Below are positions 1,238-37,943 of a DNA stretch of 38,199 bases, piece after piece (within the stretch, counting starts at the first letter, position 1; the number at the start of each line of letters is the position of its first letter). The position numbers were made by a program, and so were the translations under genes. Where the stretch lies: positions 1-38,199 of the forward strand of contig DAHWOF010000130.1 of assembly GCA_027335345.1 (NCBI GenBank), read 5' to 3'. The notes beneath the pieces are model-generated. The model saw only the letters and a program-made list of their open reading frames with translations. It did not search any database and was not told the DNA's origin. The stretch is from Granulicella sp. (GTDB lineage Bacteria; Acidobacteriota; Terriglobia; Terriglobales; Acidobacteriaceae).

Positions 1238-1288
1238 GCAATGAGTTACTCCACCAGTCTGTGCTTCCGGGATTTTGCTGCTGCTCTG

Positions 1289-3401: not shown

Positions 3402-3409
3402 AGACCAGG

Positions 3410-8157: not shown

Positions 8158-8312
8158 GATCTTTGGGGAAGCGGATCCGCAGCAACCGGCCGACCGCAGC
8201 AGACTGCGGAACCGCAGGGGACCTGTGCAGGAGTTGGTTGCTCGGGTCGAAGGAAGCTGCCCTGGACCCGGTGGGTTCATGGACGCTCTCATAAGACAAG
8301 CGGAGGGATGGG

Positions 8313-16500: not shown

Positions 16501-16642
16501 GGTAGTTGAAGCGAGGCAGCACTTCAACAGGGATCTTCCACCAGGCATAGAAACCATAGGCAACAAGAGCACCGTAGATGAGGGCCCAGAAGATTGGCTG
16601 CAAAAAAAGTTCGCGAATGGAGTTCTTCTCAATCATGGGCAT
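13580..16642 (-). CDS. RND-family efflux transporter permease (AcrB-like)
   Basis: 1020 aa; PRFNYPMISVITHQPGATATELETGIAWPLEGEL, TM4 VGLLCDDGIIVLESIYHR (Asp-Asp pair), duplicated 12-TM architecture. Confidence 0.93.
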   Translation of the reverse strand: MPMIEKNSIRELFLQPIFWALIYGALVAYGFYAWWKIPVEVLPRFNYPMISVITHQPGATATELETGIAWPLEGELMSLPNVVDVRSSMGNGVVETDIRFREGTSSQIDLMSVNSAIDRAHPEMPPGVQPVSEIMGNAIDEVADYALQIPASVSPTEAQHAIMANIAPALRALPGVYQVEVYGAGEEALWVQPDLAAMVRYGVSVTSLLGALQQQVLLNPGGYITAGHQDILIEVRSLPRHIADLEDIPVPSSSGPIPLHDLAHVVRAAVPTLNAALLDHHASVAMVVFKQPDASTIPVAQSVQQSLNTSTRQLPQGVRWVRIYSQGHLVKSVGADLSRNLLLGGILAIGVLLWVLGAGRGIWILSLSIPLSLLLGIAGLYATGQSLNLMTLGALTVAVGLLCDDGIIVLESIYHRWESGDDRWTGVVRGLKDIVGPDVTGTLATVSSFAPLLFVGGLAGLFFIPFALAMTFSLLASLLISVSLIPLCLGFLGAKAGAKPTLAGKALDFLRRKNQILLGVVSRHPRWSMSVCVALLLASLASLILVPIDFLPLPNEGVLLESFTLPPGSSLVDTQAAVIAMSKRMASDPAVNHIYARIGSSSNGIYTDPAYSGEIQITLKPSINVNSLDVISNRLMQESQIPGVQTSIDTPTIERVGESLFGLPQPFVLDVYGSNIAKMRSLAAQITDRLRPIPALTGIFNNDGYLITQLQITPKTAALAARNITPAQLYAQLSPLLSGAIVAQMPQDNVSLALYVRLADAPDQSLDALSRLPIRTDGWTPLGQLANISLSPAPSTIRHIDGARALEILATPTGPLSTTMSAARKALSGLPLPAGYRYEFGGLLPQLEDAAIGLVAAAVAAFLLMVAIMILQFDGLLVPGLLLLQIPLAFTGGALTLLISGVGLNAVGMVAFLTLVGIGLNHGIVLLYRTRRNEASGMDPETAVREAVHVRFRPIALTTLTAVLGMLPTAIGWGQGAAPEQGLAAVVLGGILWSAILSTNLLPALYLHARRKQIAREVQA

Positions 16643-17718
16643 CAGTCGGGTATTTGGAACTGCTCGGCTATATTTGCGTGGAAGAGGAGATAGGCGTTGT
16701 TGACGATGACCTGGGTTCCAGGGGCAAGTCCACTTTTGATGAAGGTGTTCCAGCCCTGCGCGGGGCCGGGTTCCACTTGCTGCGCATGCTCACCCTTGCG
16801 GTCATGAACCAGCACCCACCATTTGCCCTGACTGAGGACGAGCGCGCGGCTTGGAACGATGGCGAAGATCTTTTTGGGAAGGTCGATGGTAACCTCACCG
16901 GACTCTCCGTTGATCCACTCGCTGTTGTTACGCACAGAACAGAGGAAGACAGATTCGCCGCCGCCGGCGGCGAGACTTCCGGAAACGGAGCAGACGCGCA
17001 CGGGGATTGGGGCGCCACCGTCGGAGGGCATGAATGTCCCGGACATGCCGGGATGGATTGAGGTAAGTTCAGAGCCGTAGTAGTCGGCGCGAAGCCAAAG
17101 GCCCACGGCAGGCTGCAAGGTGACCACAGGTTGGCCAGCGCTGACTAGTTGTCCATTGGCGCTATTGATGGCGATGATGATGCCGCTGGCAGGAGCAGTC
17201 AGCGTCATCATCTGACGCACAGAGGTGAGTTTCGATTGCGCGCTGTCGTAGACCGTCTGCGCCTGTGCTGCAGCGCTGTCCGCTTGTTGGATGGCCTGGC
17301 GGGTGGTGAGATGCGACGGCAACTGCTCACGTTCGATCGCCAGGCTTTTTTGCGCGGCGTCAAGGGCAGAACGAGCGCTGCGAACCTCGGCTTGACTTTG
17401 CAAGAGAAGCGTTTGCATGGTGGGACCGCCGAGAGTGGCCAGGGATTGGCCTGCGCGAACGTAAGCCCCAGGAACAACGCGGAGGCCCTCGACGACGCCA
17501 GTCTCCGCGGCACTCAGCGGAACGAGTTGAATGGGCTCGACTTGGCCGTAGGCGACCAGTTGCGGGGAGAAAGGTTGAACCTTGACGGTGACTGCGTTCG
17601 CATCTGGCGCCTGGCCAGAGGTAAATGTGGCACAGGCCAGCAGCGCAATTGCGCATACGCCTGAAGCGAGCGGGCGAAGGGACGCGCCGCGCCACAGAGC
17701 AAAACAATGGATCTTCAT
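16642..17718 (-). CDS. RND efflux periplasmic adaptor (membrane fusion protein, HlyD/AcrA-like)
   Basis: Biotinyl-lipoyl-like segments and coiled coil; GVVEGLRVVPGAYVRAGQSLATLGGP, LTAPASGIIIAINSANGQLVSAGQPV; TGATG coupling to the RND gene. Confidence 0.88.
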   Translation of the reverse strand: MKIHCFALWRGASLRPLASGVCAIALLACATFTSGQAPDANAVTVKVQPFSPQLVAYGQVEPIQLVPLSAAETGVVEGLRVVPGAYVRAGQSLATLGGPTMQTLLLQSQAEVRSARSALDAAQKSLAIEREQLPSHLTTRQAIQQADSAAAQAQTVYDSAQSKLTSVRQMMTLTAPASGIIIAINSANGQLVSAGQPVVTLQPAVGLWLRADYYGSELTSIHPGMSGTFMPSDGGAPIPVRVCSVSGSLAAGGGESVFLCSVRNNSEWINGESGEVTIDLPKKIFAIVPSRALVLSQGKWWVLVHDRKGEHAQQVEPGPAQGWNTFIKSGLAPGTQVIVNNAYLLFHANIAEQFQIPD

Positions 17719-17804
17719 AACGACTCCCGCTGATGGTTGTCCGAAGGAAGCTGAGCGCACGATGACTCATACGCGCACGAACACGGGCGACGGACAGCGG
17801 AGGT

Positions 17805-18292: not shown

Positions 18293-19789
18293 CTAAAGTC
18301 CAGAGGCCTGGATCACCTTCAGGATCTGATTCAGGATCAGTTCGGGGGCGCATCCCAAAACGATTACGCCTCCAGCCAGTATCCCGATGAGCAGGCGCAT
18401 CAGCACGGTGGACTGGATTGGGTCGGCCTCAGCTGACGCTTCCGCGACGAAGGCGCTCTTCAGCACTCGCAGGTAGTAGTAGAGAGAGACCGCGCTCATA
18501 CCGATGGCCAGAATAATCAGCCAAAGCAGCAGTTTCGACCCTGGATCCACGGTAAGGAGAGAAACGAAGAGGAAGAACTTCGCGAAGAAGCCAGAGAGCG
18601 GCGGGATTCCGGCCAGCGAGAGGATGAAGACGAAGAGACAGGCAGAGAGAAAGGGCGCTCGGCGGTTAAGGCCGGCGAGGTCGGCGATGCGATCGTTGCC
18701 CAGTTGCTTTTCGGTAACCGCGAGGATTCCGAAGATCCCGAGAGTTGCCAGAGCGTAAGTGACGACGTAATAGAGAAGCGCAGCCAGACTCTGCTCTGAG
18801 TGGGCGACGTAGGCGAGCAACATGTAGCCGGCATGGGCTACTGCGGAGTAGGCAAGCAGGCGACGGAGGCTGGTCTGGGTGATCGCAATTAGATTACCCA
18901 GAATCATGGAGACGACGGCGACGGCCACCAGAACCGGCACCCAGCCGCTCTGAAAGTGGACCGGGGATGCCACGCCTTCCGCACCCGCAAAGGCCAGAAC
19001 CAGGAGTTGGAAGAAGATAAAGAAGCTGGCCACCTTCGAGCCGGAGGCGATAAAGGCCGCGCTGGGGATGGGTGCTGCTTGGTAGACATCCGGTGCCCAG
19101 AAGTGGAAGGGGGCAGCGGCGAGCTTGAAACCGAAGCCGATGACGGTGGTGACGATGGCCAGGATCAGGATGGAGCTAAAAGGATGTCCTTGAACCGCAC
19201 AGGCGATCTCCACAAAATTAGTGGAGTTGGCCAGGCCATAGAGCAGACTGAAGCCGAAGAGGAGGAACGCCGCGGACATGCCACCGAAGAGAAAGTACTT
19301 GAGCGCCGCCTCTGAGGAGCGGGGACGGAGTTTGTCAAAGCCGGCAAGGATATAGGCCGACAAGCTGAGCAGTTCGAGCGAGAGGAAGAGGACGAGAAGG
19401 TCCTGTGCAACCACCAAAAACATCATGCCTGTTGTGGCCAGAAGAATGAGAAGGACGAACTCCCCCACATGCTCGGTGAAGTCGGTATCCACCGCCAAAA
19501 ACAGGGTTAGGATGGCGATGACCAGGAGGGCGATCTGGACCAGTTGGGTGAGCGGAGTGGAGACCAAGATTTTATCGAGGAGGGCTCCTTGGGTTGAGGT
19601 ATGTAGAAGCTCGTCGAGAGCGATGAGGCATCCGATGGAAGCGATGCTGGTTGCGGCGAGGAAGCGAAGGCGGAGGCGAGAGTGCCGGAGCGCGACCAGA
19701 TCGACCGACAGAGCGAGAAGCGCAGCGAGAATAATGGTGATCTCAGGCCAGAGAAGCCGCAGAAGTTGTCCAAAGTCGATGATGCTCAT
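18293..19789 (-). CDS. nuoN: NADH-quinone oxidoreductase subunit N
   Basis: 498 aa; GFGFKLAAAPFHFWAPDVYQAAP (TM7 Lys retained), LAYSAVAHAGYMLLA, GIPPLSGFFAKFFLF; last gene of complex I operon. Confidence 0.93.
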   Translation of the reverse strand: MSIIDFGQLLRLLWPEITIILAALLALSVDLVALRHSRLRLRFLAATSIASIGCLIALDELLHTSTQGALLDKILVSTPLTQLVQIALLVIAILTLFLAVDTDFTEHVGEFVLLILLATTGMMFLVVAQDLLVLFLSLELLSLSAYILAGFDKLRPRSSEAALKYFLFGGMSAAFLLFGFSLLYGLANSTNFVEIACAVQGHPFSSILILAIVTTVIGFGFKLAAAPFHFWAPDVYQAAPIPSAAFIASGSKVASFFIFFQLLVLAFAGAEGVASPVHFQSGWVPVLVAVAVVSMILGNLIAITQTSLRRLLAYSAVAHAGYMLLAYVAHSEQSLAALLYYVVTYALATLGIFGILAVTEKQLGNDRIADLAGLNRRAPFLSACLFVFILSLAGIPPLSGFFAKFFLFVSLLTVDPGSKLLLWLIILAIGMSAVSLYYYLRVLKSAFVAEASAEADPIQSTVLMRLLIGILAGGVIVLGCAPELILNQILKVIQASGL

Positions 19790-21300
19790 TACCAGCCTCC
19801 CTTGCTCAGGCCGTCAAACATCGGCGAATTCAGGGCTGGATGGATGACATGGAGAAAGATCTGGGGAAAGATACCGACGACCACACTTGAGGCGATGAGA
19901 ATGACAGCGGCCGCCCGCTCCGGAAGGGAGATGGGTGGAAGCGGGTGATCATCGGGAGGAACCGTAACCAGGGGACCGCCAGCGAAGAACGCCTGCTGCA
20001 TCGCGCGCCAGATATAGGCAACACCGGCGACCAGACCGAAGCCGACGAAAAGGACGAGAGTTGGATAGGAGCGCCAGACGCCGATCAAAATCATAAGCTC
20101 GGCAGCGAAGCCGCTGAAGCCCGGAAGCCCCATGCTGGCCATGCCGGCGATAACGAAGGTGAAGGCGGCAAAGGGGATGACCTTGCTGAGGTGCATGGGG
20201 CCCAGGGCGGCCAGCTCGCGGGTATGGGTGCGGGAGTAGACCATGCGGCCTACAACACCGAAGAGAAGTCCGGCGAGGATGCCGTGGGAGATCATCTGAA
20301 CGACCGCGCCAGAGAGACCAATCTGATTCAACGTCATCAACCCAAGCAGGATGAAACCCATATGACTGATGCTGGAGTAACCGATGACAAACTTGAAGTC
20401 CTTTTGTACCAAAGCGACCAGCGCGCCGTAGATAATACCGATGACTGCCAGAATTGCGAAGACGTCACGCCAGGATCCGAATCCGAGGACGTGGAAGCCC
20501 CAGGGACCGAGGCCAAGAGGGAAGAGGGTCATGGCGACGCGGAGGCATCCGTAAGCTCCGAGCTTCATGACGACTCCGGCCAGGAGCATGGAAGCCGCAG
20601 TGGGGGCAGCGACGTGTCCGGTGGGGGCCCAGGTGTGGAACGGCCACATGCCCGCCAGAACGGCGAAGCCGGTGAAGACCAGAGGGAAGGCCCACATTTG
20701 GAAGTGCGGCGAGAAGTGGTAGCCGGCGAGGTAGTCCAGAGAGAGGCTTCTGGAGCCGGAGACGACGTAAGCGGCGACCAGGCCGACCAGCACCATGGCG
20801 CTGCCGACAAAGGAGTAAATCACCAGCTTCATGGCTCCGTACTCCCGCCGCGTTGAACCCCAGATGGCGATCAGGAAGTACTTGGGGATGACGACAATCT
20901 CATAGAAGACGAACAGGAGGAAGAGGTCGTAGCTCAGAAAGACGCCATAGACGGCGCCGATCAGCACCAGGTAAAAGGCGAAGAACTCCTTGACGCGAAC
21001 GTCAATATTCCAGGACAGAAGAACGCCGCAGATTCCAATGATGCCGGTGAGCAAAAGTAGGGTCAGGCTGATGCCGTCGGCTTTGAGGGAGTATTGGATG
21101 CCCAGAGAGTGAATCCAGGGAACGCTGACGACGGTGAACATTTCGCCGGAGCGATGCTGGAGGAATCCCAAAAGGGCGAGGGCAAAGGTGGTGACGCTGA
21201 CCAGCAATGCCAGTAGCCTCGCCAAGGTGGCGCTTCGACTTGGCAGCAGCAGGAGCGCCAGTGCCCCGAGAAAGGATATGTAGATCGTCCAAGCAAGCAT
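19789..21300 (-). CDS. nuoM: NADH-quinone oxidoreductase subunit M, second copy (NuoM2)
   Basis: FYEIVVIPKYFLIAIWG, MWPFHTWAPTGHVAAPTAASMLLAGVVMKLGAYG, GYSSISHMGF; start MLAWTIY chosen, the supplied ORF is 5'-extended. Confidence 0.93.
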   Translation of the reverse strand: MLAWTIYISFLGALALLLLPSRSATLARLLALLVSVTTFALALLGFLQHRSGEMFTVVSVPWIHSLGIQYSLKADGISLTLLLLTGIIGICGVLLSWNIDVRVKEFFAFYLVLIGAVYGVFLSYDLFLLFVFYEIVVIPKYFLIAIWGSTRREYGAMKLVIYSFVGSAMVLVGLVAAYVVSGSRSLSLDYLAGYHFSPHFQMWAFPLVFTGFAVLAGMWPFHTWAPTGHVAAPTAASMLLAGVVMKLGAYGCLRVAMTLFPLGLGPWGFHVLGFGSWRDVFAILAVIGIIYGALVALVQKDFKFVIGYSSISHMGFILLGLMTLNQIGLSGAVVQMISHGILAGLLFGVVGRMVYSRTHTRELAALGPMHLSKVIPFAAFTFVIAGMASMGLPGFSGFAAELMILIGVWRSYPTLVLFVGFGLVAGVAYIWRAMQQAFFAGGPLVTVPPDDHPLPPISLPERAAAVILIASSVVVGIFPQIFLHVIHPALNSPMFDGLSKGGW

Positions 21301-21302
21301 AA

Positions 21303-22871
21303 TCAGAAAGTCCGCAGATGTAGCGCCATCTGGATGGCGGTGTGGTTGACGACGCCGAGGATCAACTGGGGATAGAGACCCAGAACGAACATAAGTCCAA
21401 TCACGGGGATGAGCGCGAGACGTTCGCCGAGGGTGAGATCGGGCAGACGCGCCCAGCGCTCGTTGAGTGGACCGGAGAAGACACGCTGCAGGATGCCGAG
21501 GATGAAGAGAGCGGTAATCAGCAGGCCGATGACTGCCAGCGAGGCGGCCCACATGGCAAGGGGAAAGGTTCCCTTGAAGATAAGAAACTCACCGACGAAA
21601 CCATTGAGGCCCGGCAGGCCGAGAGAAGAGAAGAGCGCAATGCCCATCACGCCGGTGAATAACGGCACGGCCTTGCGCAAGCCGCCAAAATCATCCAGGC
21701 CACGGAGGCCACCGGTCCGCCGCTCCAGCATGGCGACGAACCAGAAGAGGGTGGCGGCGGTGAGTCCGTGGTTGAACATCTGCAGGAAGACGCCGTTGAG
21801 GGCAGCGAACTTCTGGCCGGTCAGCACGGCGTCTCCACCGGTCAACCTAACCACCGCAAAGATCGCCAACAGGCAGTATCCCAGGTGATTGATGGAGGAG
21901 TAAGCGAAGATGCGCTTGAGATCCTTCTGGGCCAGAGCGGTATAGGCGGACAGAACGATGGTGGCCACCGCAAGCCAGAGAAGAATCGTAAGCACGCGCT
22001 GCATTTCGGCGCTGAAGATGGGCAGCAGGATGCGCAGAAATCCGTAAAGGCCCATCTTCGACATGGCTCCGGTCAACAGGATGGTGGTGCCGGAGGGCGC
22101 CTCAGAGTAGGTGGAGGGCAGCCATGTATGGAACGGAAACAGCGGAACCTTGACGGCAAAACCGAGCAAGGCTCCGCAGAAGATGATCATCGCCACATGT
22201 TGCGGAGTCAGAAGATGCCAGTTGAGCCGGGAGACCACGGCCGGCATCAGTGTTCCGTTCTGAGCCATGTTGGCGAGTTCGGTGAGGTCGAATGTTCCGG
22301 TCGAGAGGAAGATGGCCAGGAAGGAGAGCAGCATGGCCACGCTGCCCACCATGGTGTAGACGAGAAACTGCATGGCGGCTTTGGCGCTGCCCGGGCCTCC
22401 CCATAACCTGACCAGAAAGAAGGCGGGAATCAGGCCCAGTTCCCAGAAGATGAACCAGTGGAAGAAGTTCAAGGCGGTGAAGGTGCCAACGAGGCAGGCC
22501 TGCAGGGCCAGGACCAGAGAGAAGTACAAACCAACCTTGTGTTCGATATGCCAGGAGGCAAAGATGCTGATCGGAACCACAACTGCGGTGAGCAGCAGCA
22601 TCAGCAGCCCCAGGCCGTCGATCCCTACGCGGTAGTCAACATTAAGCGAAGGAATCCATGTGTGGATCTCCTGAAATTGGAAACCATCGGCCGCAGAGTT
22701 GAAGTTGTGCCACAGGATCAGGGTAAGGACCAAGGCGATCAGGCTAAAGGCCAGCGCTGTCCAGCGCGCCATGGCCTTATTTCTACCCAGAGCGAGCGAC
22801 AGGAGCGCGCCCACCAAGGGTAGCGCCGTCAGCGTCGTGATCCACGGAAAAGGGCTCGTAGCGGGGCTCAT
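21303..22871 (-). CDS. nuoM: NADH-quinone oxidoreductase subunit M, first copy (NuoM1)
   Basis: FWELGLIPAFFLVRLWGG, FAVKVPLFPFHTWLPSTYSEAPSGTTILLTGAMSKMGLYG, GLPGLNGFVGEFLIF; start MSPATSP chosen, overlapping nuoL stop. Confidence 0.93.
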   Translation of the reverse strand: MSPATSPFPWITTLTALPLVGALLSLALGRNKAMARWTALAFSLIALVLTLILWHNFNSAADGFQFQEIHTWIPSLNVDYRVGIDGLGLLMLLLTAVVVPISIFASWHIEHKVGLYFSLVLALQACLVGTFTALNFFHWFIFWELGLIPAFFLVRLWGGPGSAKAAMQFLVYTMVGSVAMLLSFLAIFLSTGTFDLTELANMAQNGTLMPAVVSRLNWHLLTPQHVAMIIFCGALLGFAVKVPLFPFHTWLPSTYSEAPSGTTILLTGAMSKMGLYGFLRILLPIFSAEMQRVLTILLWLAVATIVLSAYTALAQKDLKRIFAYSSINHLGYCLLAIFAVVRLTGGDAVLTGQKFAALNGVFLQMFNHGLTAATLFWFVAMLERRTGGLRGLDDFGGLRKAVPLFTGVMGIALFSSLGLPGLNGFVGEFLIFKGTFPLAMWAASLAVIGLLITALFILGILQRVFSGPLNERWARLPDLTLGERLALIPVIGLMFVLGLYPQLILGVVNHTAIQMALHLRTF

Positions 22872-24985
22872 ATGCGTGCCTTCCATAGCAGCAGGATGGT
22901 GAACACCACCAGCGCGCCTGCGATGATCTTGAGATATCCCTGAATACGGCCTGCTTGGAGCAACGCTAGAAGCTTGCCGCCGCTGGAGACGCCTTCGCAT
23001 CCTTCGTCGAAGCCAGAGTTGACAACGTGTGTATCGATGAAGTTGTCCAAGTGAGCAAATCCAAAGACGGTTTGAGTCACAGTCTTGACGGCGCCGTTCC
23101 AGACCCAGCGGTCAAACCAATCGGAAACTCTGGAGACGAGCGTATTGAGGCGAATGAAGGTGGCTCCGTAGAGCGCATCCACGTAAGCGGCGTGGCCCAG
23201 GAAGTTGAAGGCCGGGGGCGCCAGCCGCCCAAGGTTGTCCGGCGCCTCCGCGCCTTCGATGGGCCGGCGACCGTAGAACCACCAGCCTAACCCGAGGCCG
23301 AGAAGGACGATCACCGAGGAGGTCAGCATTACGGTAAGGATTCCGCCTTGGGTAAAGGCGCCAAAGTCCAGCTTCAGCGGGGCATCTTCCAGGAAAGATT
23401 GGAACCAGGGCCAGGCGGCTGTTCCGACAAACCCGAGCAGTCCGGCGAAGATGGACAATAGGAGGAGCGGGACGGTCATGACTGCCGGGCTTTCATGCGG
23501 GACTCCCGAACCATGGTGGTGAGCGTCTGCGTGGGCCGAAGAGTGACCGGCGTCGTGAACGGCCTGGTGGGCCGCCGGGGTAACTCGGAGCGTCCCGAAG
23601 AAGACATAGATTACCTGGCGGGACATATAGAAGGCCGTGAGCAGGGCTCCGGCGGCGCCCAGAAAATAGGGTATGTGGGAGATGTTCCAGGTGCTGGCTG
23701 CGTGCAGGATCTCATCCTTGCTCCAGAAGCCGGAGAAGAGTGGGAAACCGCACAGGGCAAGCATGCCGACCGCATATGCGGCAAAGGTTACGGGCATGTA
23801 TTTGGCCAGGCCTCCCATGCGGCGGATATCCTGTTCCTCCGAGCAGCCGTGGATGACCGAGCCGGCGCCAAGGAAGAGCAGGGACTTGAAGAAGGCATGG
23901 GTGATGAGGTGAAAGATGCCTACGGCAACACCGCCAACGCCCAGACCCATCATCATGTAGCCGAGCTGGGAGACGGTGGAGTAGGCCAGAATACGTTTGA
24001 TGTCCCACTGCGCGACGGCGATGGTGGCGGCAAAGAAAGCGGTGATGGCGCCGATCCAGGTAACGACCTGAAGGGCGACCGAGGTGGTCAGCATCCCGTC
24101 GATGGAGTGATGTGCGCTCATCAGGGGATAAACGCGCGCAACGAGGAAGACGCCGGCGGCGACCATGGTGGCGGCGTGGATCAGCGCGCTGACTGGCGTA
24201 GGTCCTTCCATGGCGTCGGGCAACCAGACATGCAGCGGAACCTGTCCGCTCTTTCCAACGGCGCCGCAGAAGATGAGCAGGGCGATGGCCGTGGCAGCGC
24301 AGACTCCGAGGGGTGTGGCCTGGGAGAGCATGTGGGTAATGGCGGTTGGCTCCATGCATCCGGCGCCGTGGTTGTAGAACAGCAGCGTTCCGGTCTGGGA
24401 GTAAAGCCAGACCATACCCAGGAAGAAGGGTAGATCGCCGATGCGGGTGGTGATGAACGCTTTCTTGCCGGCGGCTGCAGCGCTGGGCTTGTGATACCAG
24501 AAGCTGATCAGGAGATAGGAAGTCAATCCAACGATCTCCCAACACATGAAGAGGAGTAGCAGGCTGTTGGAGATGACCACGCCGAGCATGGCGCCGGCGA
24601 AGAGCGCAAGGAAGCAGAAGAACCGGGTAAAGTTCTCATCGTGCGCCATGTAGCCGACACTGAAGATGAAGATCAGCAGCCCTACGAAGGTGACCATCAC
24701 CAGCATGACCGCCGTAAGTGGGTTCAGAACCCAGCCGAGCAACAGCCATTCGTTTCCAAACTGGAACCAGCGGAAGTTGAAGACCTGAGTGGTGAGTTCG
24801 CCGTTGCTGCGCTGGGCAAGCACGTGCGCAAATGCCCAGACCGAGAGAAGGAAGGAGATGCCCATCGAACCGATGGCGAGAGCAGCGCCGCGTGCGCGGC
24901 CCTTCTGCGGGGTAAGGGCAATGATCCCCGCTGCAAGCAGGGGTAACGCAGGAATCAGCCAGAGATTTTGTACGATCCAGTTCAT
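22868..24985 (-). CDS. nuoL: NADH-quinone oxidoreductase subunit L with extended C-terminal lateral-helix region
   Basis: 705 aa; FMCWEIVGLTSYLLISFWY, GKSGQVPLHVWLPDAMEGPTPVSALIHAATMVAAG, LAYSTVSQLGYMMMGLG. Confidence 0.95.
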   Translation of the reverse strand: MNWIVQNLWLIPALPLLAAGIIALTPQKGRARGAALAIGSMGISFLLSVWAFAHVLAQRSNGELTTQVFNFRWFQFGNEWLLLGWVLNPLTAVMLVMVTFVGLLIFIFSVGYMAHDENFTRFFCFLALFAGAMLGVVISNSLLLLFMCWEIVGLTSYLLISFWYHKPSAAAAGKKAFITTRIGDLPFFLGMVWLYSQTGTLLFYNHGAGCMEPTAITHMLSQATPLGVCAATAIALLIFCGAVGKSGQVPLHVWLPDAMEGPTPVSALIHAATMVAAGVFLVARVYPLMSAHHSIDGMLTTSVALQVVTWIGAITAFFAATIAVAQWDIKRILAYSTVSQLGYMMMGLGVGGVAVGIFHLITHAFFKSLLFLGAGSVIHGCSEEQDIRRMGGLAKYMPVTFAAYAVGMLALCGFPLFSGFWSKDEILHAASTWNISHIPYFLGAAGALLTAFYMSRQVIYVFFGTLRVTPAAHQAVHDAGHSSAHADAHHHGSGVPHESPAVMTVPLLLLSIFAGLLGFVGTAAWPWFQSFLEDAPLKLDFGAFTQGGILTVMLTSSVIVLLGLGLGWWFYGRRPIEGAEAPDNLGRLAPPAFNFLGHAAYVDALYGATFIRLNTLVSRVSDWFDRWVWNGAVKTVTQTVFGFAHLDNFIDTHVVNSGFDEGCEGVSSGGKLLALLQAGRIQGYLKIIAGALVVFTILLLWKARI

Positions 24986-25096
24986 TGAGCGCCCGTCAAG
25001 AGTTGCAGGTGAGTGAGAGGACTGTCTATTTTAGCGACAACGCAGGCGGTTGCGGAGTTGGAGAAGTTGCTAAGGCGTACGTTCATGATGTACCGC

Positions 25097-25408
25097 TTAA
25101 CCCTTCAAAAAGTTGATCTTGTCTAAATCCGTCGTCCGGAAGTGCCGGTAGACGGCAACGATGATACTGAGGCCGACGGCCGCTTCTGCCGCGGCGACGC
25201 CTATGGAGAAGATGACGAACATCACTCCGGTCAGCATCTCCGGGTGCCGACCGTAACGCCAAAAGGCGATGAAGTTCAGGTTGGCCGCGTTGAGCATGAG
25301 TTCGATGCCAATGAGAACCAGGATGGCATTGCGCCGGATGAGTGCGCCGGAGAGGCCGATGGAGAACAGGACGGCGGAGAGGAGCAGGTAGCTGGAGAGC
25401 GAGTTCAT
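25097..25408 (-). CDS. nuoK: NADH-quinone oxidoreductase subunit K
   Basis: 103 aa; GALIRRNAILVLIGIELMLNAANLNFIAF; ATGA overlap with nuoJ. Confidence 0.95.
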   Translation of the reverse strand: MNSLSSYLLLSAVLFSIGLSGALIRRNAILVLIGIELMLNAANLNFIAFWRYGRHPEMLTGVMFVIFSIGVAAAEAAVGLSIIVAVYRHFRTTDLDKINFLKG

Positions 25409-25908
25409 CGATCTCCTCCTTTTTCTTCGATGGCGAGTACTCCAGCTCCGATCAGTGCCGCGGTCAGGAGGACGCCGATGATCTCCAGGGGAAGGACAAA
25501 GCGCTGCATCAGCGCCACGCCAACTTCCCGAACCGAAGCCTCCGGTTGTGCGCCGGAGAGCGGCTGCGGAGAGACTCCGGTAAGGATCGCCCAGGCCAAC
25601 ACCGCGAAGACCAGGAGGGCGGTCAGCGCTCCCGAGAGCCGGGAAGAGACCGAGCCAGGCGCGAGAGTCTCCCCGGTTCGGCTGCGCGTCAGCATGATGG
25701 CGAAAACCGCCAAGATGGCTACCGCACCGACGTAGACAAGGACTTGCGTCAATCCGACGAACTGAGCCCCTAACTGGAGATACAGAGCAGCCAAGCCTAC
25801 CATGCCCAGGGTGAGCGCAAGAACACAGTGAACCGCAGTCTTCAGATTCATCGCCGCGGCGGCTCCGAGAATCGCGATGGCGGCGAGCAGCATAAAGGAG
25901 AGAGTCAT
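25405..25908 (-). CDS. nuoJ: NADH-quinone oxidoreductase subunit J
   Basis: 167 aa; AAAMNLKTAVHCVLALTLGMVGLAALYLQLGAQFVGLTQVLVYVGAVAILAVFAIML. Confidence 0.94.
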   Translation of the reverse strand: MTLSFMLLAAIAILGAAAAMNLKTAVHCVLALTLGMVGLAALYLQLGAQFVGLTQVLVYVGAVAILAVFAIMLTRSRTGETLAPGSVSSRLSGALTALLVFAVLAWAILTGVSPQPLSGAQPEASVREVGVALMQRFVLPLEIIGVLLTAALIGAGVLAIEEKGGDR

Positions 25909-26007
25909 TTCAAGACGTTTCCAGTTCCGCGGAGTTGGTGATGGTGAATGAACATATGGAACCCGATGTCCGTGTGATGAAGAGCACCGCTGATGATCAT
26001 CACTCGG

Positions 26008-27183
26008 CTAGCTGGCGAAGCGATAGGTGCGTTCCTGAAACCATTTGTTGCGCCTGAGGTTCCGGCTCAACAGGAAACAGGAGAGCAGGAGCAGGAGGCT
26101 GATGACGGACCAGCGCGTAAAACCGGAGGGAAGATAATGCCACAGCCCTGCGCTAACGATATTAATCAGTGAGAGTGGCAGCATGAACTTCCACCCGAAG
26201 TTCATCAACTGATCCATGCGCAGGCGCGGAAGTGTGCCGCGAATCCAGATGAAGACCATAAGCATGAGGATCAGTTTGGCAAAGAACCAGAACCAGGAGG
26301 GAATCCAGGTGAGGAAAGAGAAGGGCGCGGCCCAGCCGCCCAGGAAGAGGGTGATGGCCATGGCGCTGCTGGCCATCATGCCCAGGTACTCTGCGACAAA
26401 GAAGAGGGCAAACTTGAAGCCCGAGTACTCGATGAAGTAGCCGGCGATGATCTCAGACTCGCCCTCAGGCATATCGAAGGGGCAGCGGTTGGACTCGGCC
26501 GTGGCCGCAATCATGAAGAGGATGTAGCCGGTGATGCCCCAGGGAGTAAACAAATACCAGTGCGGCCAGATTCCGGTGTAACCCGCCTGCATGTTCACGA
26601 TGGTGACGGTGGAGAGCGAGCCTGCCGCCATAATTGCCACCACGCCAGAAAGAACCATGGGCATCTCATAGCTGATCATCTGAGCGATGGCGCGCATGGC
26701 CCCCAGCAGAGAATACTTGCTGCGGCTGGACCAGCCCGCCATGAAGACGGCCAGTTCCACCATGCTTCCGATGGCGAAAAAGAATAGGACGCCCGCATTC
26801 AGATCAACCACCACCATATTCCTGCCTACCGGCACCACCGAGTACACCAGGAATGAAGCGATGACGATGAGGATAGGCGCCAGCAGGTGGACGAGGTGAT
26901 CCGCGGAGCGAGGAACGATGTCTTCCTTGGTGAGCGACTTGATGCCGTCGGCGGCCGGCTGCAGGATCCCCCACGGACCGGCGCGGTTAGGACCGTAGCG
27001 GTTCTGCATTCTACCCAGGCCTTTGCGCTCCAGCACCGTTGTGATCGCAAACAGCAGGGGAAACACAACCAGTATCGGGAGCACGGACAAAATGGCGGAG
27101 CACAGCGGCTGCAGACCGCTGGGCACATAGCCCATGATCCACTGTTTCAGGAGAACAAAGATCTGATCGATCATCTCAGGCAT
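26008..27183 (-). CDS. nuoH: NADH-quinone oxidoreductase subunit H
   Basis: 391 aa; LERKGLGRMQNRYGPNRAGPWGILQPAADGIKSLTKEDI, AESNRCPFDMPEGESEIIAGYFIEYSGFKFALFFVAEY. Confidence 0.95.
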   Translation of the reverse strand: MPEMIDQIFVLLKQWIMGYVPSGLQPLCSAILSVLPILVVFPLLFAITTVLERKGLGRMQNRYGPNRAGPWGILQPAADGIKSLTKEDIVPRSADHLVHLLAPILIVIASFLVYSVVPVGRNMVVVDLNAGVLFFFAIGSMVELAVFMAGWSSRSKYSLLGAMRAIAQMISYEMPMVLSGVVAIMAAGSLSTVTIVNMQAGYTGIWPHWYLFTPWGITGYILFMIAATAESNRCPFDMPEGESEIIAGYFIEYSGFKFALFFVAEYLGMMASSAMAITLFLGGWAAPFSFLTWIPSWFWFFAKLILMLMVFIWIRGTLPRLRMDQLMNFGWKFMLPLSLINIVSAGLWHYLPSGFTRWSVISLLLLLSCFLLSRNLRRNKWFQERTYRFAS

Positions 27184-27237
27184 GATTGGCTACCATCCAC
27201 CGCGAAATCTTGCTTTCTCCAATAAGTGTCCAAAAGG

Positions 27238-27912
27238 TCATTTCGTCTCCTCTTTGGCGGACGTGTCGGTGTTGGTCCCGGGGGCGGGGACTGGGACATG
27301 CGCAGCGGGGGCAGAGGCCGGCGCTGCGGCCGCTTTGGCAGCAGCGGCAGCCGCGGCCGCCAAAGCAGCCTGCTTTTGCTTCTCTTTTTCCTTCTCTCGC
27401 TCCTCAGCCAAGGCGGCATCGACGGCCGCAGCTTCCGTGGGATGAATCTTGTGATAGTACTCGTTGGACTTGGCCAGCTTGTCTTTGTGGTGGAGCAGAC
27501 CGCCGAAGCGATCGTCCGAACTCAACTCGAACTCGACGTCCATCTTGATGGCATCGAATGGGCAGACTTCGACGCAGATCTGGCAGCTCATGCAGACAGA
27601 GACGTCAATATCGAATCTTACGGGGTAGAACTGGAGCTTGCCGACAGCGTCAGGCTTCTTATCCTTGCTCTTTTCGATGAAGATGCACTTGGGCGGGCAC
27701 TCTTTCTCGCAGATGTGGCAGGAGACGCAGCGCAGGCCCTTCTCCCAGTCGTCGCCGTCGTAGACCAAAAAGGGGAAGTCGCGAGTCCCCTCGATTTGGG
27801 GGAGCCGCTCCTCAGGGTATTGAACTGTGGTCAAGCGCTCTTTGTCGACATAGCTTCCAAAGAAGTTGCGCGCCGTCTCGGCAAGGCCTTTGATGATTCC
27901 GTCCCCTAGCAC
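27238..27912 (-). CDS. nuoI: NADH-quinone oxidoreductase subunit I (2x[4Fe-4S] ferredoxin-like) with Ala/Glu/Lys-rich C-terminal tail; GTG start
   Basis: CVSCHICEKECPPKCIFIE and CMSCQICVEVCPFDAIKMD; located between nuoD and nuoH. Confidence 0.93.
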   Translation of the reverse strand: MLGDGIIKGLAETARNFFGSYVDKERLTTVQYPEERLPQIEGTRDFPFLVYDGDDWEKGLRCVSCHICEKECPPKCIFIEKSKDKKPDAVGKLQFYPVRFDIDVSVCMSCQICVEVCPFDAIKMDVEFELSSDDRFGGLLHHKDKLAKSNEYYHKIHPTEAAAVDAALAEEREKEKEKQKQAALAAAAAAAAKAAAAPASAPAAHVPVPAPGTNTDTSAKEETK

Positions 27913-28012
27913 AGGCAGCCTCCAACACCCTTTGCAATATTCGCCTCAAACAACGTCTCGCTGACCGAACTGCAGCGATCCAAGATTGCCTCATTGTTAT
28001 GCATCTTGAAGT

Positions 28013-29173
28013 TCAACGGTCCACCTCACCCAAGACGATATCCACGCTGCCCAGGATGATGACGACGTCAGAGACGTTGTGACCCAGGCACATCTGTTCG
28101 AGCAGGGTGAGATTGATTAGGCTGGGCGGACGCACCCGGTAGCGGTAGGGATTGGGTCCTCCATCGCTGATGAGGTAAAAGCCCAGCTCGCCCTTAGGGG
28201 CCTCTATCCGCCCGTAGGCCTCACCCGCCTTGGGCCGGAAGTTACGTATCTTGGTGTTTGGATCCATGATGGGGCCGGACGGCAGATCGCGCATCGCCTG
28301 CTTGAGGATCTCGATGGACTCACGCATCTCCAGCAAGCGCATCATGTAGCGGTCGTAGACGTCCCCATGCTCGCCGAGAGGAACCCGGAAGGAAAACCGA
28401 TCATAGATGCCGTACTTGTCCACTTTGCGGAGATCGTAGTTGACCCCCGAAGCCCTGGCCATCGGACCACTGATTCCGGCGTTGATGGCCTGTTCGCGGG
28501 TGACGATGCCGATGCCCTGGGTGCGCGCCATCAGGATCTCGTTGGTCCGCAGCAGCCGTTCAAACTCATCTAGGAATCGCGGAAATCCGTCCACGACCTT
28601 CTGGGCATGCTCCATCCACCCGGAGGGAAGGTCGCGGCGGCAACCTCCGAAGCGCATGTAGTTGCACATCATGCGTGAACCTGTGAGGGCTTCAAAGAGA
28701 TCCAGAATCTTCTCCCGCTCGCGGAAGGCGTACATCAGGGGAGTACCGCTGGCCCCCATATCCTGCAACAGGAAGCCAATCAGGCCGGCGTGGTTCTGCA
28801 GCCGGGTCAGCTCACCTGTGATGACGCGCAGGTACTCGGCGCGCTCCGGCACGGGAATGCCGGCCAGTTTCTCCACGGCCAGTGCATAGGCCCAGTTGTT
28901 AGTGATGGAGCAGATGTAATCCAGGCGGTCGGTGTAGGGCATGGAGCCCAGATAGGTCTCATGCTCAGCGATCTTCTCGTGATTGCGGTGCAGGTAGCCA
29001 AAGACAGGCTTCAGCTTGACCACACGTTCTCCATCCAGCACGATGTTCATTCGGAAGACGCCGTGTGTGGAGGGGTGATGGGGTCCCATGGAGATCTCCA
29101 GCAGATCGCCGTGGAGATGGTCGTTGGCCGGCTGGGAGATGGTATCGATGGAGACTTCGGTCAGAACGCTCAT
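28013..29173 (-). CDS. nuoD: NADH-quinone oxidoreductase subunit D
   Basis: [53 protein letters not shown]; no [NiFe] CxxC pairs. Confidence 0.95.
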
Positions 29174-29823
29174 CTTGCTTCCTCTGCTCCGGATAGTGCT
29201 TCCTGCGCCGCGTAATGGGCTTGGGTTCGCCTGAGCACCTCATCGTGGGCGGTTGGTTCGTACTCATAGTCATCCGGATCGACGTAGTCTTTGCGCATGG
29301 GGTGGTCGGTGAAGTCCTCCCACATCAGCAACCGGCGCAGATCGGGATGGCCGTCAAAGACGATGCCGAACAGGTCATAGACCTCTCGCTCCTGAAACTC
29401 CGCGCTGCGCCAAACTGGGGTCAGGGAAGGGAGGTGAACCCGCTCCGCGCGGTCCCCGGTGCGCATGCGCAGCACCAGAGGACCCTGGCGGTTTTCCTGT
29501 GAAAAAAGGTGGTAGACCACCTCCAGATAGTTGCCTGTGGAGATCTTGACCAGCTCTTCAACCTCCTTCTCCACGCCGTCGACGATCTTCTTCGTCTTTT
29601 GCTTGGAGGAGGTCTCTTTGAGGGGCCAATCGATTCCGGTGACGTTGGAGCAGTAATCAAAGTGTGGGCTGGCGCCGTCTCGCAAAAAGCTGGCCACAGT
29701 CAGGGCATGCTCTGGATCCACAAGCAGAGAGTGCTGGCCGGATGGGCTCGCGTTCGGGAGGATCTCCAGGGAGCAACCGGGTACATTGGCTTCAATTTGA
29801 GATTTAATCTCTTCCAGATTCAT
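29170..29823 (-). CDS. nuoC: NADH-quinone oxidoreductase subunit C
   Basis: [22 protein letters not shown]...[49 protein letters not shown]; start MNLEEIKS chosen. Confidence 0.93.
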
Positions 29824-30445
29824 TTGGGCCTGCATTTGAGATGTTAACCAACGGAGCATGCCAGATGGCGTCGTTCCGTGTAGGGGTAAGGTCGTGCTGG
29901 CCGTATTGCGGCACGACAAACTCGCTCGGCTGTTCCTCCTGGAGATGGCGGGGGCGACCGGGACCGGTGAGCTGCTGCTCGTCGATCTTCCGCTGCAGCA
30001 TCAAAAATGCATCCAACAGCGCCTCCGGACGGGGAGGGCAGCCGGGGATGAAGACATCGACGGGGATATAGCGATCGATGCCCTTGAGCACGTTATAGCC
30101 CTGCTTGAAGGGCCCGCCGGAGATAGCGCATGCGCCCATGGAGATGACGTACTTGGGTTCCGCCATCTGGTTATAGAGACGTACTACCTGCGGAGCCATC
30201 TTTTTGGTGACGGTTCCAGCGACGATCATAAGATCCGCCTGGCGCGGCGAGGGACGAAAGACCTCGGCTCCGAAGCGGGCCAGATCGTAGCGCGCCATGG
30301 TAGTGGCGATCATCTCAATGGCGCAGCAGGCGAGACCGAAGTTGAGCGGCCAGATGGAGCTTTTGCGGCCCCAGTTGTAAAGCTCCTGGAGAGAAGTGGC
30401 GACCACACCTTGGCGCCTCAACTCACTTTTTAGCTGTTCATCCAT
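29804..30445 (-). CDS. nuoB: NADH-quinone oxidoreductase subunit B
   Basis: [77 protein letters not shown] (N2 cluster Cys retained). Confidence 0.96.
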
Positions 30446-30577
30446 GCCTTAGAACCCTTTGAGCGGATGTTTCAGTTGGTTTTGCAGGACCAAACCGACG
30501 CTACTTGCAGTTTACTTTGATGCTGCAACAGCTGTAGCCCGATGGCTGGTGGATGTTTGAGGAATGCGAACGGTGGA

Positions 30578-30949
30578 TCAGGTCCAGGAGAGTACGTTCT
30601 TCTGCCAGGCCCAGACGAGCCCTTCTACAAGGAGAAGCAGAAACACCAGCATGGAGACGGACTCTGCCACAGTGAAGCCCCCGAACGCGACAGCGAACGG
30701 CAGAAGGAAGACAGCTTCCACGTCAAAGATAAGAAAGATGATGGCGTAGAGGTAATAGCCTGGCTTGAACTTGATCCAGGCATCGCCGTTGGACTCCAAG
30801 CCACACTCATAAATCGCGTTTTTGGTGGGGCCTGCCTTTTGCGGAGAAAACTTTTTGGCCCATACCCATGCCAGAGCCAACGGACCGATGGCGAAAGCCG
30901 CGCCTGCAATCAAGAGCACAATAACCGGAAGGTACATGTGATTCGTCAT
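30578..30949 (-). CDS. nuoA: NADH-quinone oxidoreductase subunit A, first gene of operon
   Basis: 123 aa; KNAIYECGLESNGDAWIKFKPGYYLYAIIFLIFDVEAVFLLPFAVAF. Confidence 0.95.
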   Translation of the reverse strand: MTNHMYLPVIVLLIAGAAFAIGPLALAWVWAKKFSPQKAGPTKNAIYECGLESNGDAWIKFKPGYYLYAIIFLIFDVEAVFLLPFAVAFGGFTVAESVSMLVFLLLLVEGLVWAWQKNVLSWT

Positions 30950-30986
30950 AGCTCATCTTTACTTTACCAGAGACGAAACAAATCAG

Positions 30987-31002
30987 TGTGACATTGATCA
31001 CA
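30987..31002. promoter_or_regulatory. Perfect CRP/FNR-superfamily-like operator TGTGA-CATTGA-TCACA in the nuoA/nifJ divergent region
   Basis: Exact 5+5 bp palindrome with 6-nt spacer centred between two divergent start codons; regulator identity unknown. Confidence 0.6.
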
Positions 31003-31027
31003 ACAGGACGACTCCCAGCCGCTGAGA

Positions 31028-34693
<3,666 letters not shown>

Positions 34694-34736: not shown

Positions 34737-35040
34737 GGCGTCAAGATGCTCCTCAAACCATCACCGAACTGGCGCGGAGCCAGCAAATTCGCCCATTGGA
34801 AAAGTTGAGAAGATAGCCCGAAGGGCGCCGTTTCGCAGGCAAGACAACTTATGAAGATTGAGCATTTCGAGGTGCGGCAAACCCGGCTCGATAGCGAACG
34901 GTTGCGGGGAAGGAATACAATCTCTGGTGGTATATGACGAGCCGGTTGCTATGACGGCTGCGGGAGCGAAACGCGAGTTTTCCTGCCTTCCCGACCATCC
35001 GCAGAACTCTATCGGCGCAACAAGATGGAAGGATTTATCA

Positions 35041-36894
35041 ATGGCTACCACGAATCTCGAAGCTGAGAGTCTGTCCGCAGCAGACTCGATTGTTCACCCC
35101 AAGAAATTGGTGAACGATTTCACCATCCAGGTCGCAACGGTAAACGGATCTGGATCACAGTCCGCGAACAGCATCCTGCTCCGGAGCATCTTTCGAATGG
35201 GGGTTCCAGTCTCCGGCAAGAACCTGTTTCCATCCAACATTGCAGGACTGCCCACGTGGTTTCTGATTCGCGCCAACCGTGATGGCTGGGTGGCGCGCAA
35301 GGGGCACGTGGATCTGCTGATTGCGTTGAATCCAGAGACCGTGTTGGACGATATTCGCAAACTGCCGGCGGGTGGGGCTGCGATCTATGACGAAAGCTTC
35401 TCGATCGGAGACCGTCGCGCCGATGTGGTGTACTATCCCGTTCCCTTCGATCAACTGGTAGCTGCGACCGGGGCGGAGATGAAGGTTCGCAAGCTGATCA
35501 AGAACATGGTCTATGTGGGCGTGGCGGCGCAGCTCCTGGCCATCGACATGAAGGGCCTGGAGAGCATCGTTCGGCAGCAGTTTTCTCGCAAGGCCGCAGT
35601 GGCGGATCTGAACTGGAAGGCGGTTCAGCTCGGTTTTGATTATGCCGCCAGCTCGCTGACCAAGCAGGATGGGCTCATGGTTGAGCCGATGAACGCCACA
35701 CAGGGCAAGATCATCATCGATGGAAATGCGGCCTGCGCCATGGGTGCGATGTTCGCCGGAGTGACGGTGGTGAGCTGGTATCCGATCACTCCGTCAACCA
35801 GCGTGGTGGAAGATCTGATCAAGTACATGAAGAAGTACCGGGTGGAGAAGGACGGCAAGGCCACCTTTGCCATCGTGCAGGCCGAGGATGAGCTGGCCGC
35901 AATGGGGATGGTGCTGGGCGCGGGATGGGGCGGAGCTCGCTCCATGACGGCGACATCCGGACCTGGCATCTCGCTGATGGCGGAGTTTGCCGGGCTCGGA
36001 TACTTTGCCGAGATCCCGGGTGTCATTATTGACGTGCAAAGAACCGGCCCTTCAACGGGACTGCCGACCCGCACGCAGCAGTGCGATATCGCCTTCATCT
36101 CCGGGCTGTCGCATGGCGATACCAAGCACGTGATGCTGCTTCCGGGCTCGGTGAAAGAGTGCTTCGAGCTGGCCATTGAGGCCTTTGACGTTGCGGAGAT
36201 GCTCCAAACTCCTGTGTTCATTCTGAGCGATCTGGATTTGGGGATGAACAACTGGATGTCCGATCCATTCGAATATCCAGAGAAACCGATCAATCGAGGA
36301 AAGGTATTGAACGCGAAGCAACTGGAAGAGTTGGGAGAGTTTGCCCGTTACAAGGACGTGGATGGCGACGGCATTCCTTACCGGACGCTACCTGGGACAA
36401 ACCATACCAAAGCGGCGTACTTCACGCGCGGTACGGGCAAAAATGAGAGGGCGCTGTACTCGGAGAGGCCGGAGGACTATGCGCAGAACATGCAGCGGTT
36501 GGCTCGCAAGTTCGAAACCGCAAAGACCTTGGTCCCCAAGCCTGTACTGAAGGGAACGGGGAAGGAGAAGATAGGCATCATCGCCTTCGGGAGCAGCGAT
36601 CCTGCCGTGCTGGAGAGCCGGGATCAGTTACAACGCGAAGCCAGGATCGAGACCGACTATCTGCGCCTTCGGGCTTATCCGTTTACGCAGGAGGTCAATG
36701 ACTTCGTGGCTCGCCACGAGACCATCTTTGTGGTGGAACAGAACCGCGATGGCCAGATGCGAAACCTGTTGAAGACCGACCTGGATGCATCCGAGGCTGT
36801 CAAGCTGCACTCGATCACCTACTTTGCCGGCCTGCCGATAGAGGCGAGGGTTATTACCGAGGCTATCACCAAATTTGAAGGAGCAAGAAAGTAA
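35041..36894 (+). CDS. korA: 2-oxoacid:ferredoxin oxidoreductase, fused gamma-alpha subunit (2-oxoglutarate:ferredoxin oxidoreductase KorA-like)
   Basis: N-terminal gamma domain (ILLRSIFRMGVPVSGKNLFPSNIAGLPTWF) then alpha domain (GNAACAMGAMFAGVTVVSWYPITPSTSVVEDLIKY...ATSGPGISLMAEFAGLGYFAEIPGVIIDVQRTGPSTGLPTRTQQCD); RBS GGAAGGA before ATG 35041. Confidence 0.9.
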   Translation: MATTNLEAESLSAADSIVHPKKLVNDFTIQVATVNGSGSQSANSILLRSIFRMGVPVSGKNLFPSNIAGLPTWFLIRANRDGWVARKGHVDLLIALNPETVLDDIRKLPAGGAAIYDESFSIGDRRADVVYYPVPFDQLVAATGAEMKVRKLIKNMVYVGVAAQLLAIDMKGLESIVRQQFSRKAAVADLNWKAVQLGFDYAASSLTKQDGLMVEPMNATQGKIIIDGNAACAMGAMFAGVTVVSWYPITPSTSVVEDLIKYMKKYRVEKDGKATFAIVQAEDELAAMGMVLGAGWGGARSMTATSGPGISLMAEFAGLGYFAEIPGVIIDVQRTGPSTGLPTRTQQCDIAFISGLSHGDTKHVMLLPGSVKECFELAIEAFDVAEMLQTPVFILSDLDLGMNNWMSDPFEYPEKPINRGKVLNAKQLEELGEFARYKDVDGDGIPYRTLPGTNHTKAAYFTRGTGKNERALYSERPEDYAQNMQRLARKFETAKTLVPKPVLKGTGKEKIGIIAFGSSDPAVLESRDQLQREARIETDYLRLRAYPFTQEVNDFVARHETIFVVEQNRDGQMRNLLKTDLDASEAVKLHSITYFAGLPIEARVITEAITKFEGARK

Positions 36895-36896
36895 TC

Positions 36897-37943
36897 ATGG
36901 CAACCTCACCCGTCCCATCCACACCTGCGCGGACCAATCAGATCGGCCTTGAGATCCTGGATTACCGCGGCAGCAAGTCTACTCTCTGCGCCGGTTGCGG
37001 TCATAACGCGATCTCCGAGCGTCTGATCGAAGCATTTTACGAGATGGGCGTTCCGCCAGAGGAGGTGATGAAGATGAGCGGCATCGGCTGCTCCTCCAAG
37101 TCGCCGGCGTACTTCATGTCTCGCTCTTTCAGTTTCAACTCCGTGCATGGACGCATGCCGGCAGTGGCGACCGGAGCTCTGCTAGCCAACAAGACCATGC
37201 GGTCGATTGGCATCAGCGGAGACGGGGATACCGTCTCCATCGGGCTTGGGCAGTTCATGCACTTGCTACGCCGCAATCTGCCCATCATTTACATTGTTGA
37301 GGACAATGGAGTGTACGGGCTTACCAAAGGGCAGTTTTCCGCAACCGCCGATATTGGTTCGAAGCTGAAGACGGGCGTTGTCAATGACATGCCGCCCATC
37401 GATATCTGTGCGCTGGCGATCCAGGTGGGAGCTACTTTCGTAGGCCGATCGTTCTCCGGGGACAAGAAGCAGCTCTCCACGATGCTGAAGGCGGCCATTG
37501 CTCACAAGGGAACCGTCTTGCTGGATATCATCTCCCCGTGTGTCACCTTCAATGACCATGAGGGTTCCACAAAGAGCTACAAGTACATGAAAGAGCACGA
37601 TGAGGCAGTCAACGAAGCCGGCTTTATCGCTCCGTTTGAGGATATCGCCGTGGAGTACGATCACAATACCACCGTGGATGTTCAGCTGCATGACGGCTCG
37701 CATCTGCGGCTGCGCAAGATTCATGAGGATTACGCTCCGACCAGCAAGACGGGCGCGATCAGCATGCTCACCGAGGCGCACGATTCAGGCGAGGTCCTTA
37801 CGGGTGTCTTCTATGTGAACCCGCAAGGGATGGATTTTGTGACGCGGCTGAATTTGATTGACGAACCGCTTTCGTTCGCCTCTGAGGCTCGGGTGCGCCC
37901 TGGTCCTGAGGTCCTCACGGCGCTGATGCAAGAACTTGCTTAG
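36897..37943 (+). CDS. korB: 2-oxoacid:ferredoxin oxidoreductase, beta (TPP) subunit
   Basis: STLCAGCGHNAISERLIEAF, SGIGCSSKSPAYF, SIGISGDGDTVSIGLGQFMHLLRRNLPIIYIVEDNGVYGLTKGQFSAT. Confidence 0.92.
   Translation: MATSPVPSTPARTNQIGLEILDYRGSKSTLCAGCGHNAISERLIEAFYEMGVPPEEVMKMSGIGCSSKSPAYFMSRSFSFNSVHGRMPAVATGALLANKTMRSIGISGDGDTVSIGLGQFMHLLRRNLPIIYIVEDNGVYGLTKGQFSATADIGSKLKTGVVNDMPPIDICALAIQVGATFVGRSFSGDKKQLSTMLKAAIAHKGTVLLDIISPCVTFNDHEGSTKSYKYMKEHDEAVNEAGFIAPFEDIAVEYDHNTTVDVQLHDGSHLRLRKIHEDYAPTSKTGAISMLTEAHDSGEVLTGVFYVNPQGMDFVTRLNLIDEPLSFASEARVRPGPEVLTALMQELA

Follow-up and report, generated by a model that had tools for sequence, protein, structure and literature searches.

A perfect TGTGA-N6-TCACA palindrome between nuoA and nifJ is probably one class II operator for two divergent promoters in a family-wide Acidobacteriaceae regulon

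The window (the whole 38,199-nucleotide stretch of Granulicella sp. DNA that was analysed) contains a complex I cluster and a set of 2-oxoacid oxidoreductase genes that read away from each other. On the minus strand, nuoA (30578-30949; Oxidored_q4, E=2.1e-29) is the first gene of the complex I cluster, which continues through nuoB, C, D, an I-like Fer4 protein, H, J, K, L, M, a second M and N (18293-30445). The Fer4 protein occupies the place of nuoI, and no nuoE, nuoF or nuoG was found within the cluster (18293-30949). Its two NuoM-like subunits make it of the duplicated-nuoM kind reported for Acidobacterium capsulatum. The closest named nuoA records are from Acidobacteria and Granulicella MAGs (81-97% identity), and a second nuoA homologue, 36% identical, lies elsewhere in the window's own draft genome (G000, a Granulicella-like Acidobacteriaceae MAG of 3.65 Mb, 84.9% complete), at C107.

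On the plus strand, nifJ (31055-34693) encodes a pyruvate:ferredoxin (flavodoxin) oxidoreductase (PFOR) with POR_N, POR, EKR, PFOR_II, Fer4 and TPP_enzyme_C domains. It is followed, after a gap of 164 bp, by a korA/B-like two-subunit 2-oxoacid:ferredoxin oxidoreductase (34858-37943), whose subunits carry POR_N and POR (34858-36894) and TPP_enzyme_C and PFO_beta_C (36897-37943). From its gene content, the locus would pair a ferredoxin-fed complex I with a ferredoxin-reducing enzyme, and the position of the cluster beside the PFOR and korAB-like genes suggests that the complex is a ferredoxin:quinone oxidoreductase. Two further gene groups share the window. A three-gene RND-type efflux set (HlyD-like, AcrB-like and outer membrane OEP; 12246-17760, minus strand) lies immediately beyond the downstream end of the nuo cluster and shares its strand, and positions 287-10283 hold amino-sugar/chitin-type utilisation genes, comprising a BadF/BcrAD-family ATPase (kinase-like), a SIS protein, a DeoR regulator, GH20, GH18 and GH35 enzymes and an amidohydrolase.

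The 78-bp gap between the nuoA ATG (30949, minus strand) and the annotated nifJ ATG (31028) contains TGTGACATTGATCACA (30987-31002), a perfect 16-base TGTGA-N6-TCACA inverted repeat. Measured from its centre (30994.5), the nuoA ATG is 45.5 bp away, the annotated nifJ ATG 33.5 bp, and a TTG at 31055 is 60.5 bp away; the sequence, coordinates, gap and distances given in an earlier, sequence-only reading of this DNA were all exact. The palindrome is a predicted member of the CRP/FNR-superfamily operators and a predicted site for one activator dimer of that superfamily, common to two divergent promoters. The exact pattern occurs once in the window, against 0.04 copies expected from dinucleotide shuffles. 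A genome scan for it, which the sequence-only reading had proposed, returned 13 copies in G000 against one for a reversed-pattern control, with about 10 of the 13 outside long reading frames. Across 121 family genomes, 1295 motifs were counted against 87 reversed-pattern matches, an enrichment of about 15-fold.

Conservation was followed in a sample of 80 nuoA loci taken from genome contigs. The sequence-only reading had made its case depend on the palindrome being kept in orthologous intergenic regions, and it is kept: in each of the 28 relatives' loci where nifJ diverges from nuoA at a distance of up to 300 bp, it is present with 0-1 mismatch. The half sites are constant across relatives and the N6 core is variable. 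Upstream of nuoA, 46 sites were found in 23.8 kb, compared with 28 in 760 kb of surrounding DNA. A uniform footprint across all nuoA orthologues was not found, the site (at most one mismatch) being present in 12 of 52 loci without an adjacent nifJ. Two loci, L025 and L087, have lost the adjacent nifJ and kept the palindrome before nuoA. In four Verrucomicrobia/Pedosphaera loci (L122, L127, L129 and L131), an identical sequence, TGTGAAAAAAGTAACA, stands 30-33 bp upstream of the orthologous nuoA; it is conserved and contains an imperfect palindrome only.

The divergent loci fall into three layouts. In layout (a), seen in 12 loci and the window, the gap is 78-98 bp and holds one shared site. In layout (b), seen in 6 loci, the gap of 220-286 bp holds two sites, one near each gene. 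In layout (c), seen in 10 loci, a gap of 124-259 bp has a single site at its nifJ end. Joint control is therefore not universal, as these ten relatives retain the nifJ site but not the nuoA site. Among family nifJ genes, 25 of 30 loci have a site within 300 bp (28 sites in 8.5 kb vs 3 in 119 kb), and nuoA is absent from 24 of the 30. Since nifJ mostly keeps its site even where nuoA is missing from the locus, PFOR is a core target, and nuoA the more labile of the two.

The flanks of the palindrome carry promoter-like elements in both directions. Towards nuoA it is followed by TCTGGTAAAGT, and TAAAGT (30961-30966) begins after 20 nt; it forms part of an extended -10-like element, TGG-TAAAGT (30961-30969, minus strand), which is kept as TG[GAC]TA...T in 13/13 shared-site relatives. 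Towards nifJ, the -10-like element GAGAAT (31024-31029, plus strand) lies 21 nt from the palindrome, and GAGAAT, GAAAAT, CAGAAT or CAGACT is found at equal spacing in 27/29 rows. A hexamer of the form xAxxxT, 20-22 nt past the palindrome, is present in 20/20 nuoA-direction rows and 27/29 nifJ-direction rows vs a mean over offsets of 19%, figures whose strength should not be overread because this -10 definition is loose and the rows are related sequences. At nifJ genes away from nuoA, xAxxxT peaks at that offset too (55%). An independent set of 20 intergenic palindromes from three genomes (G000, G117 and G098), with the window left out, had the hexamer 20-22 nt away on one flank or both in 18 cases, compared with 5.8 +/- 2.0 for shuffled flanks and with none of 3000 trials reaching 18. 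In 3/20 it stood on both flanks, against 0.5 for the shuffles (p about 0.013); a site of this two-sided kind is therefore uncommon without being unique.

With the hexamer at -12 to -7 and a spacing of 21 nt, the centre of the site falls at -41.5, which is given as the class II position in the case of FNR (PMC4886647). The palindrome would lie near -41.5 for both promoters, an arrangement consistent with class II activation from one shared site. Transcription of nuoA is predicted to start at about 30954, giving a nearly leaderless transcript (leader of about 5 nt), and that of nifJ at about 31036, with a leader of about 19 nt to TTG 31055. The expectation of very short leaders thus holds for nuoA and fails for nifJ, on these predicted starts. 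Class I activation was rejected as its spacing does not fit, in agreement with the sequence-only reading, which had thought it unlikely. The further proposal of that reading, one regulator for both arms, is probably right.

The annotated start of nifJ was also reconsidered. ATG 31028 very probably is not the start, because it overlaps the conserved GAGAAT element (31024-31029), and it was rejected in favour of a downstream TTG that close relatives share. The string TTG-AATTCAGAA, with a preceding G-run, is common to the window and three of them (L054, L055 and L056), and GTG or ATG stands near this position in other relatives. The true start is probably TTG 31055 (31055-31057), with the G-run (31044-31050) as a possible Shine-Dalgarno sequence, both within 31044-31057 on the plus strand.

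Upstream of the -10 elements, the layouts differ. In shared-site loci, the nuoA-side -35 has at most 3 of 6 matches (mean 2.3; 2 in the window). In layout (c), nuoA keeps its extended -10 and has TTCGC(A) 17 bp upstream in 9/10 loci, with a mean -35 match of 3.5. This difference is as expected if the palindrome replaces the -35 in the shared layout. The TTCGC(A) stretch can equally be read as the inverted repeat GRTTCGC...GAATC, and a different regulator may therefore act at layout (c) nuoA. This repeat is conserved in L062, L064, L065, L067, L070-L072, L078, L097 and L113, 75 bp upstream of the uncoupled nuoA, and also supplies the TTCGCA -35-like hexamer.

The reading that we favour, and regard as likely, is that two divergent promoters, both activator-dependent and of class II, share the palindrome as their operator and respond to an FNR-like regulator at low oxygen; published expression data from A. 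capsulatum agree with it. A different division of labour, in which the shared site activates nifJ alone from its class II position and the bound protein is neutral for nuoA or excludes polymerase there, the two promoters competing, is unlikely. It draws on the greater conservation of the nifJ-side spacing and site, on the 10 lineages that keep the nifJ site with nuoA 41-220 bp further off, and on the nifJ genes away from nuoA, which retain a site in most family genomes. However, the extended -10 of nuoA is the more perfectly placed and conserved element (20/20), the palindrome stands at the class II position before nuoA in L025 and L087 with no nifJ nearby, and where the intergenic region is expanded, nuoA is preceded by a second site at class II spacing. 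The -35-like hexamer of uncoupled nuoA promoters, missing from the shared type, likewise argues against a neutral or excluding role at nuoA.

Repression of one or both promoters by the bound regulator, which the sequence-only reading had raised as promoter-overlapping repression, appears decidedly unlikely. The site does overlap the expected -35 position, superfamily members can repress, and Cmr, at a single site between divergent genes, is described as a dual regulator (PMC5499769). The geometry speaks for activation instead: the class II spacing of about -41.5 to -10-like elements is found on both sides, recurs at other regulon palindromes and is constant across the regulon, and the shared-site nuoA promoters look activator-dependent because they have no recognisable -35. 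In A. capsulatum, moreover, transcripts of por and of nuoABC from the duplicated-nuoM complex I increase as O2 is lowered (PMC11636273), which repression would not lead one to expect. Other subunits of the canonical complex fall with O2 in that organism (PMC11636273), and the induction is for this reason to be read as partial.

The genome encodes suitable candidates for the regulator. G000 has four Crp-HTH proteins and two further cNMP-binding-domain proteins. The sequence-only reading had assigned the palindrome to the CRP/FNR superfamily and looked to a family member able to bind it; the conserved palindrome agrees with the assignment, and so do the encoded CRP/FNR-family regulators, with suitable recognition helices among the four Crp-HTH proteins. 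Two of them, C46 and C7, have an N-terminal C-x2-C-x7/8-C pattern and the helices RETVTR and RETITR. C33 has a related Cys-rich start and the helix RETVCR, and C219 is a CRP-like paralogue without such Cys and with the helix RELVSR. Each of the three N-terminal Cys, and likewise a fourth within V-L-C-S-G, occurs in 31-32 of the 33 homologues that were aligned. The nearest solved structures are those of CRP/FNR-family proteins, FNR-type regulators included. A search with one such FNR-like protein, L134, whose homologues L135-L163 share its three N-terminal Cys and the fourth Cys in V-L-C-S-G, found 5-17 homologues in many Acidobacteriaceae genomes.

In E. coli, the FNR cluster is ligated by C20, C23, C29 and C122, and CRP recognises TGTGA through R180, E181 and R185. 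Set against these residues, the Cys pattern and the helix probably place the regulator in a class of mixed character, its sensor part resembling that of FNR and its DNA-recognition helix that of CRP. By the same comparison, the fourth Cys of the Acidobacteriaceae proteins lies at a position other than that of C122. The DNA site bound by E. coli FNR is TTGAT-N4-ATCAA (PMC4886647), and the FNR recognition helix and TTGAT half site were not found here, where a CRP-type helix, RETVTR, accompanies a TGTGA site. Because both helix and half site differ, the regulator is not classified as FNR and is described as working like it; a literature search on the recognition helix of CRP/FNR found nothing. 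The likely regulator is one of the two FNR-like G000 proteins with four conserved Cys and a RET[VI]TR helix, and three to four paralogous regulators could bind the site.

The regulator genes are themselves partly associated with the motif. Two palindromes precede the start of C46, a perfect one at 581 bp and one with a single mismatch at 111 bp; a palindrome with one mismatch also precedes the start of C7. Among 30 regulator homologues, the autoregulation footprint is weak overall (9 sites in 18.0 kb vs 14 in 61.5 kb) and clear only for some. Over the 121 genomes, the number of C46 homologues correlates with the motif count (Spearman 0.71, partial 0.64 given genome size; phylogeny uncorrected). 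The 17 genomes without a close C46 homologue have 0.95 motifs per Mb vs 2.7 (again with phylogeny uncorrected), and some of these 17 still contain 7-11 motifs.

The set of targets in G000 is redox-leaning. Intergenic sites lie near the C46 regulator together with two small cytochromes c, a multihaem cytochrome, a 2-oxoacid dehydrogenase E1 subunit, a flavin amine-oxidase-type protein resembling protoporphyrinogen oxidase, an ArsR-type regulator, a response regulator and a DUF3536 protein, and one palindrome lies inside the annotated 5' end of ccmB. At L009 (G000:C88:4590-4605), a perfect palindrome stands 31 bp before a 2-oxoglutarate dehydrogenase E1-like gene, and for this reason the regulator may balance dehydrogenase against ferredoxin-dependent routes. 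The family-wide set of palindrome sites probably answers to low oxygen; a search of the literature found no description of FNR or CRP sites in Acidobacteriaceae.

A CRP-type consensus in the DNA site, and the presence of the Cys-free CRP-like paralogue C219 (RELVSR), would also suit a cAMP-dependent CRP proper with carbon status as its signal. This identification is doubtful, and we hold it to be quite improbable. A class III cyclase domain (PF00211) was not found in G000 (84.9% complete) or in 6/7 relatives, the remaining one giving a weak match, and the Cys-bearing regulators have, as the alignment reads, no obvious CRP-like Arg-Ser pair for the cAMP phosphate. The redox character of the targets (ccmB, the flavin amine-oxidase/protoporphyrinogen-oxidase-like gene, the multihaem cytochrome, the 2-oxoglutarate dehydrogenase E1 and PFOR) is a further point against carbon status. 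Finally, a chance palindrome without function, conceivable for a short motif of just 10 fixed bases, can be rejected with near certainty from its rarity in the window (0.04 expected), the strong genome and family excess and the conservation in relatives.

Under the favoured reading of a shared class II operator, a homodimer of the FNR-like regulator with its CRP-type recognition helix would bind the palindrome, most likely at low oxygen. The bound dimer would substitute for missing -35 contacts and help RNA polymerase to start at about 31036, serving nifJ (PFOR) and perhaps korAB, and at about 30954, serving the genes from nuoA to nuoN, which encode a complex I that has two NuoM and lacks the NADH module. 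The products would form one electron route, from 2-oxoacid oxidation through ferredoxin to quinone with proton pumping. In this scheme we infer the binding, the activation, the oxygen signal, the acting paralogue and ferredoxin as the electron donor. With 83 bp between the two polymerases, a single dimer may, for steric reasons, be able to serve just one of them at a time. The locus probably represents a single operator that is centred at about -41.5 with respect to each of two divergent promoters and belongs to a class II regulon, found across the family, whose binding and activation are predicted from sequence, and this suggests that PFOR and the complex I without an NADH module act as one unit.

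More broadly, and only tentatively, the Acidobacteriaceae may possess an expanded group of FNR-like redox sensors with a CRP-type DNA code, a fourth Cys displaced relative to E. coli FNR and a class II regulon, in which one operator is able to activate two divergent promoters symmetrically and joins a ferredoxin-producing oxidoreductase to a ferredoxin-type double-NuoM complex I. The literature on the sensing of low oxygen by soil Acidobacteriaceae, and on their response to it, appears to be sparse, and the palindrome supplies an operator that can be tested, together with a set of targets and candidates for the regulator. The three natural layouts (shared, two-site and nifJ-only) offer a comparison of divergent promoters that share, duplicate or drop an activator site.

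Several known systems resemble this arrangement. El-Robh and Busby (2002; cited in PMC5434802) reportedly found that CRP at a single target activates divergent promoters in E. coli, using promoter probe plasmids. That case is like the present one in having one CRP-family site for two divergent promoters. Unlike the plasmid study, the arrangement described here is natural and conserved in Acidobacteriaceae, and joins PFOR with complex I. The locus also resembles E. coli class II FNR- or CRP-dependent promoters in combining a superfamily palindrome near -41.5 and a -10 with no good -35 (PMC4886647; the -35 was scored here on the nuoA side). It differs from them in that its start sites are predicted, and in having a CRP-type TGTGA site though the candidate regulators look FNR-like. 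The Cmr site of Mycobacterium tuberculosis is similar in that a redox-responsive CRP/FNR-family protein acts as a dual regulator at one DNA site between divergent genes (PMC5499769); the genes, the clade and probably the activation geometry differ. For the duplicated-nuoM complex I of A. capsulatum, the paper, which cites Chadwick et al. 2018, describes no regulatory site, and FNR and CRP, looked for within it, were not found (PMC11636273). That system is alike in belonging to the same organism family, in having a duplicated nuoM and in its nuoABC transcripts, which are higher at low O2 (PMC11636273).
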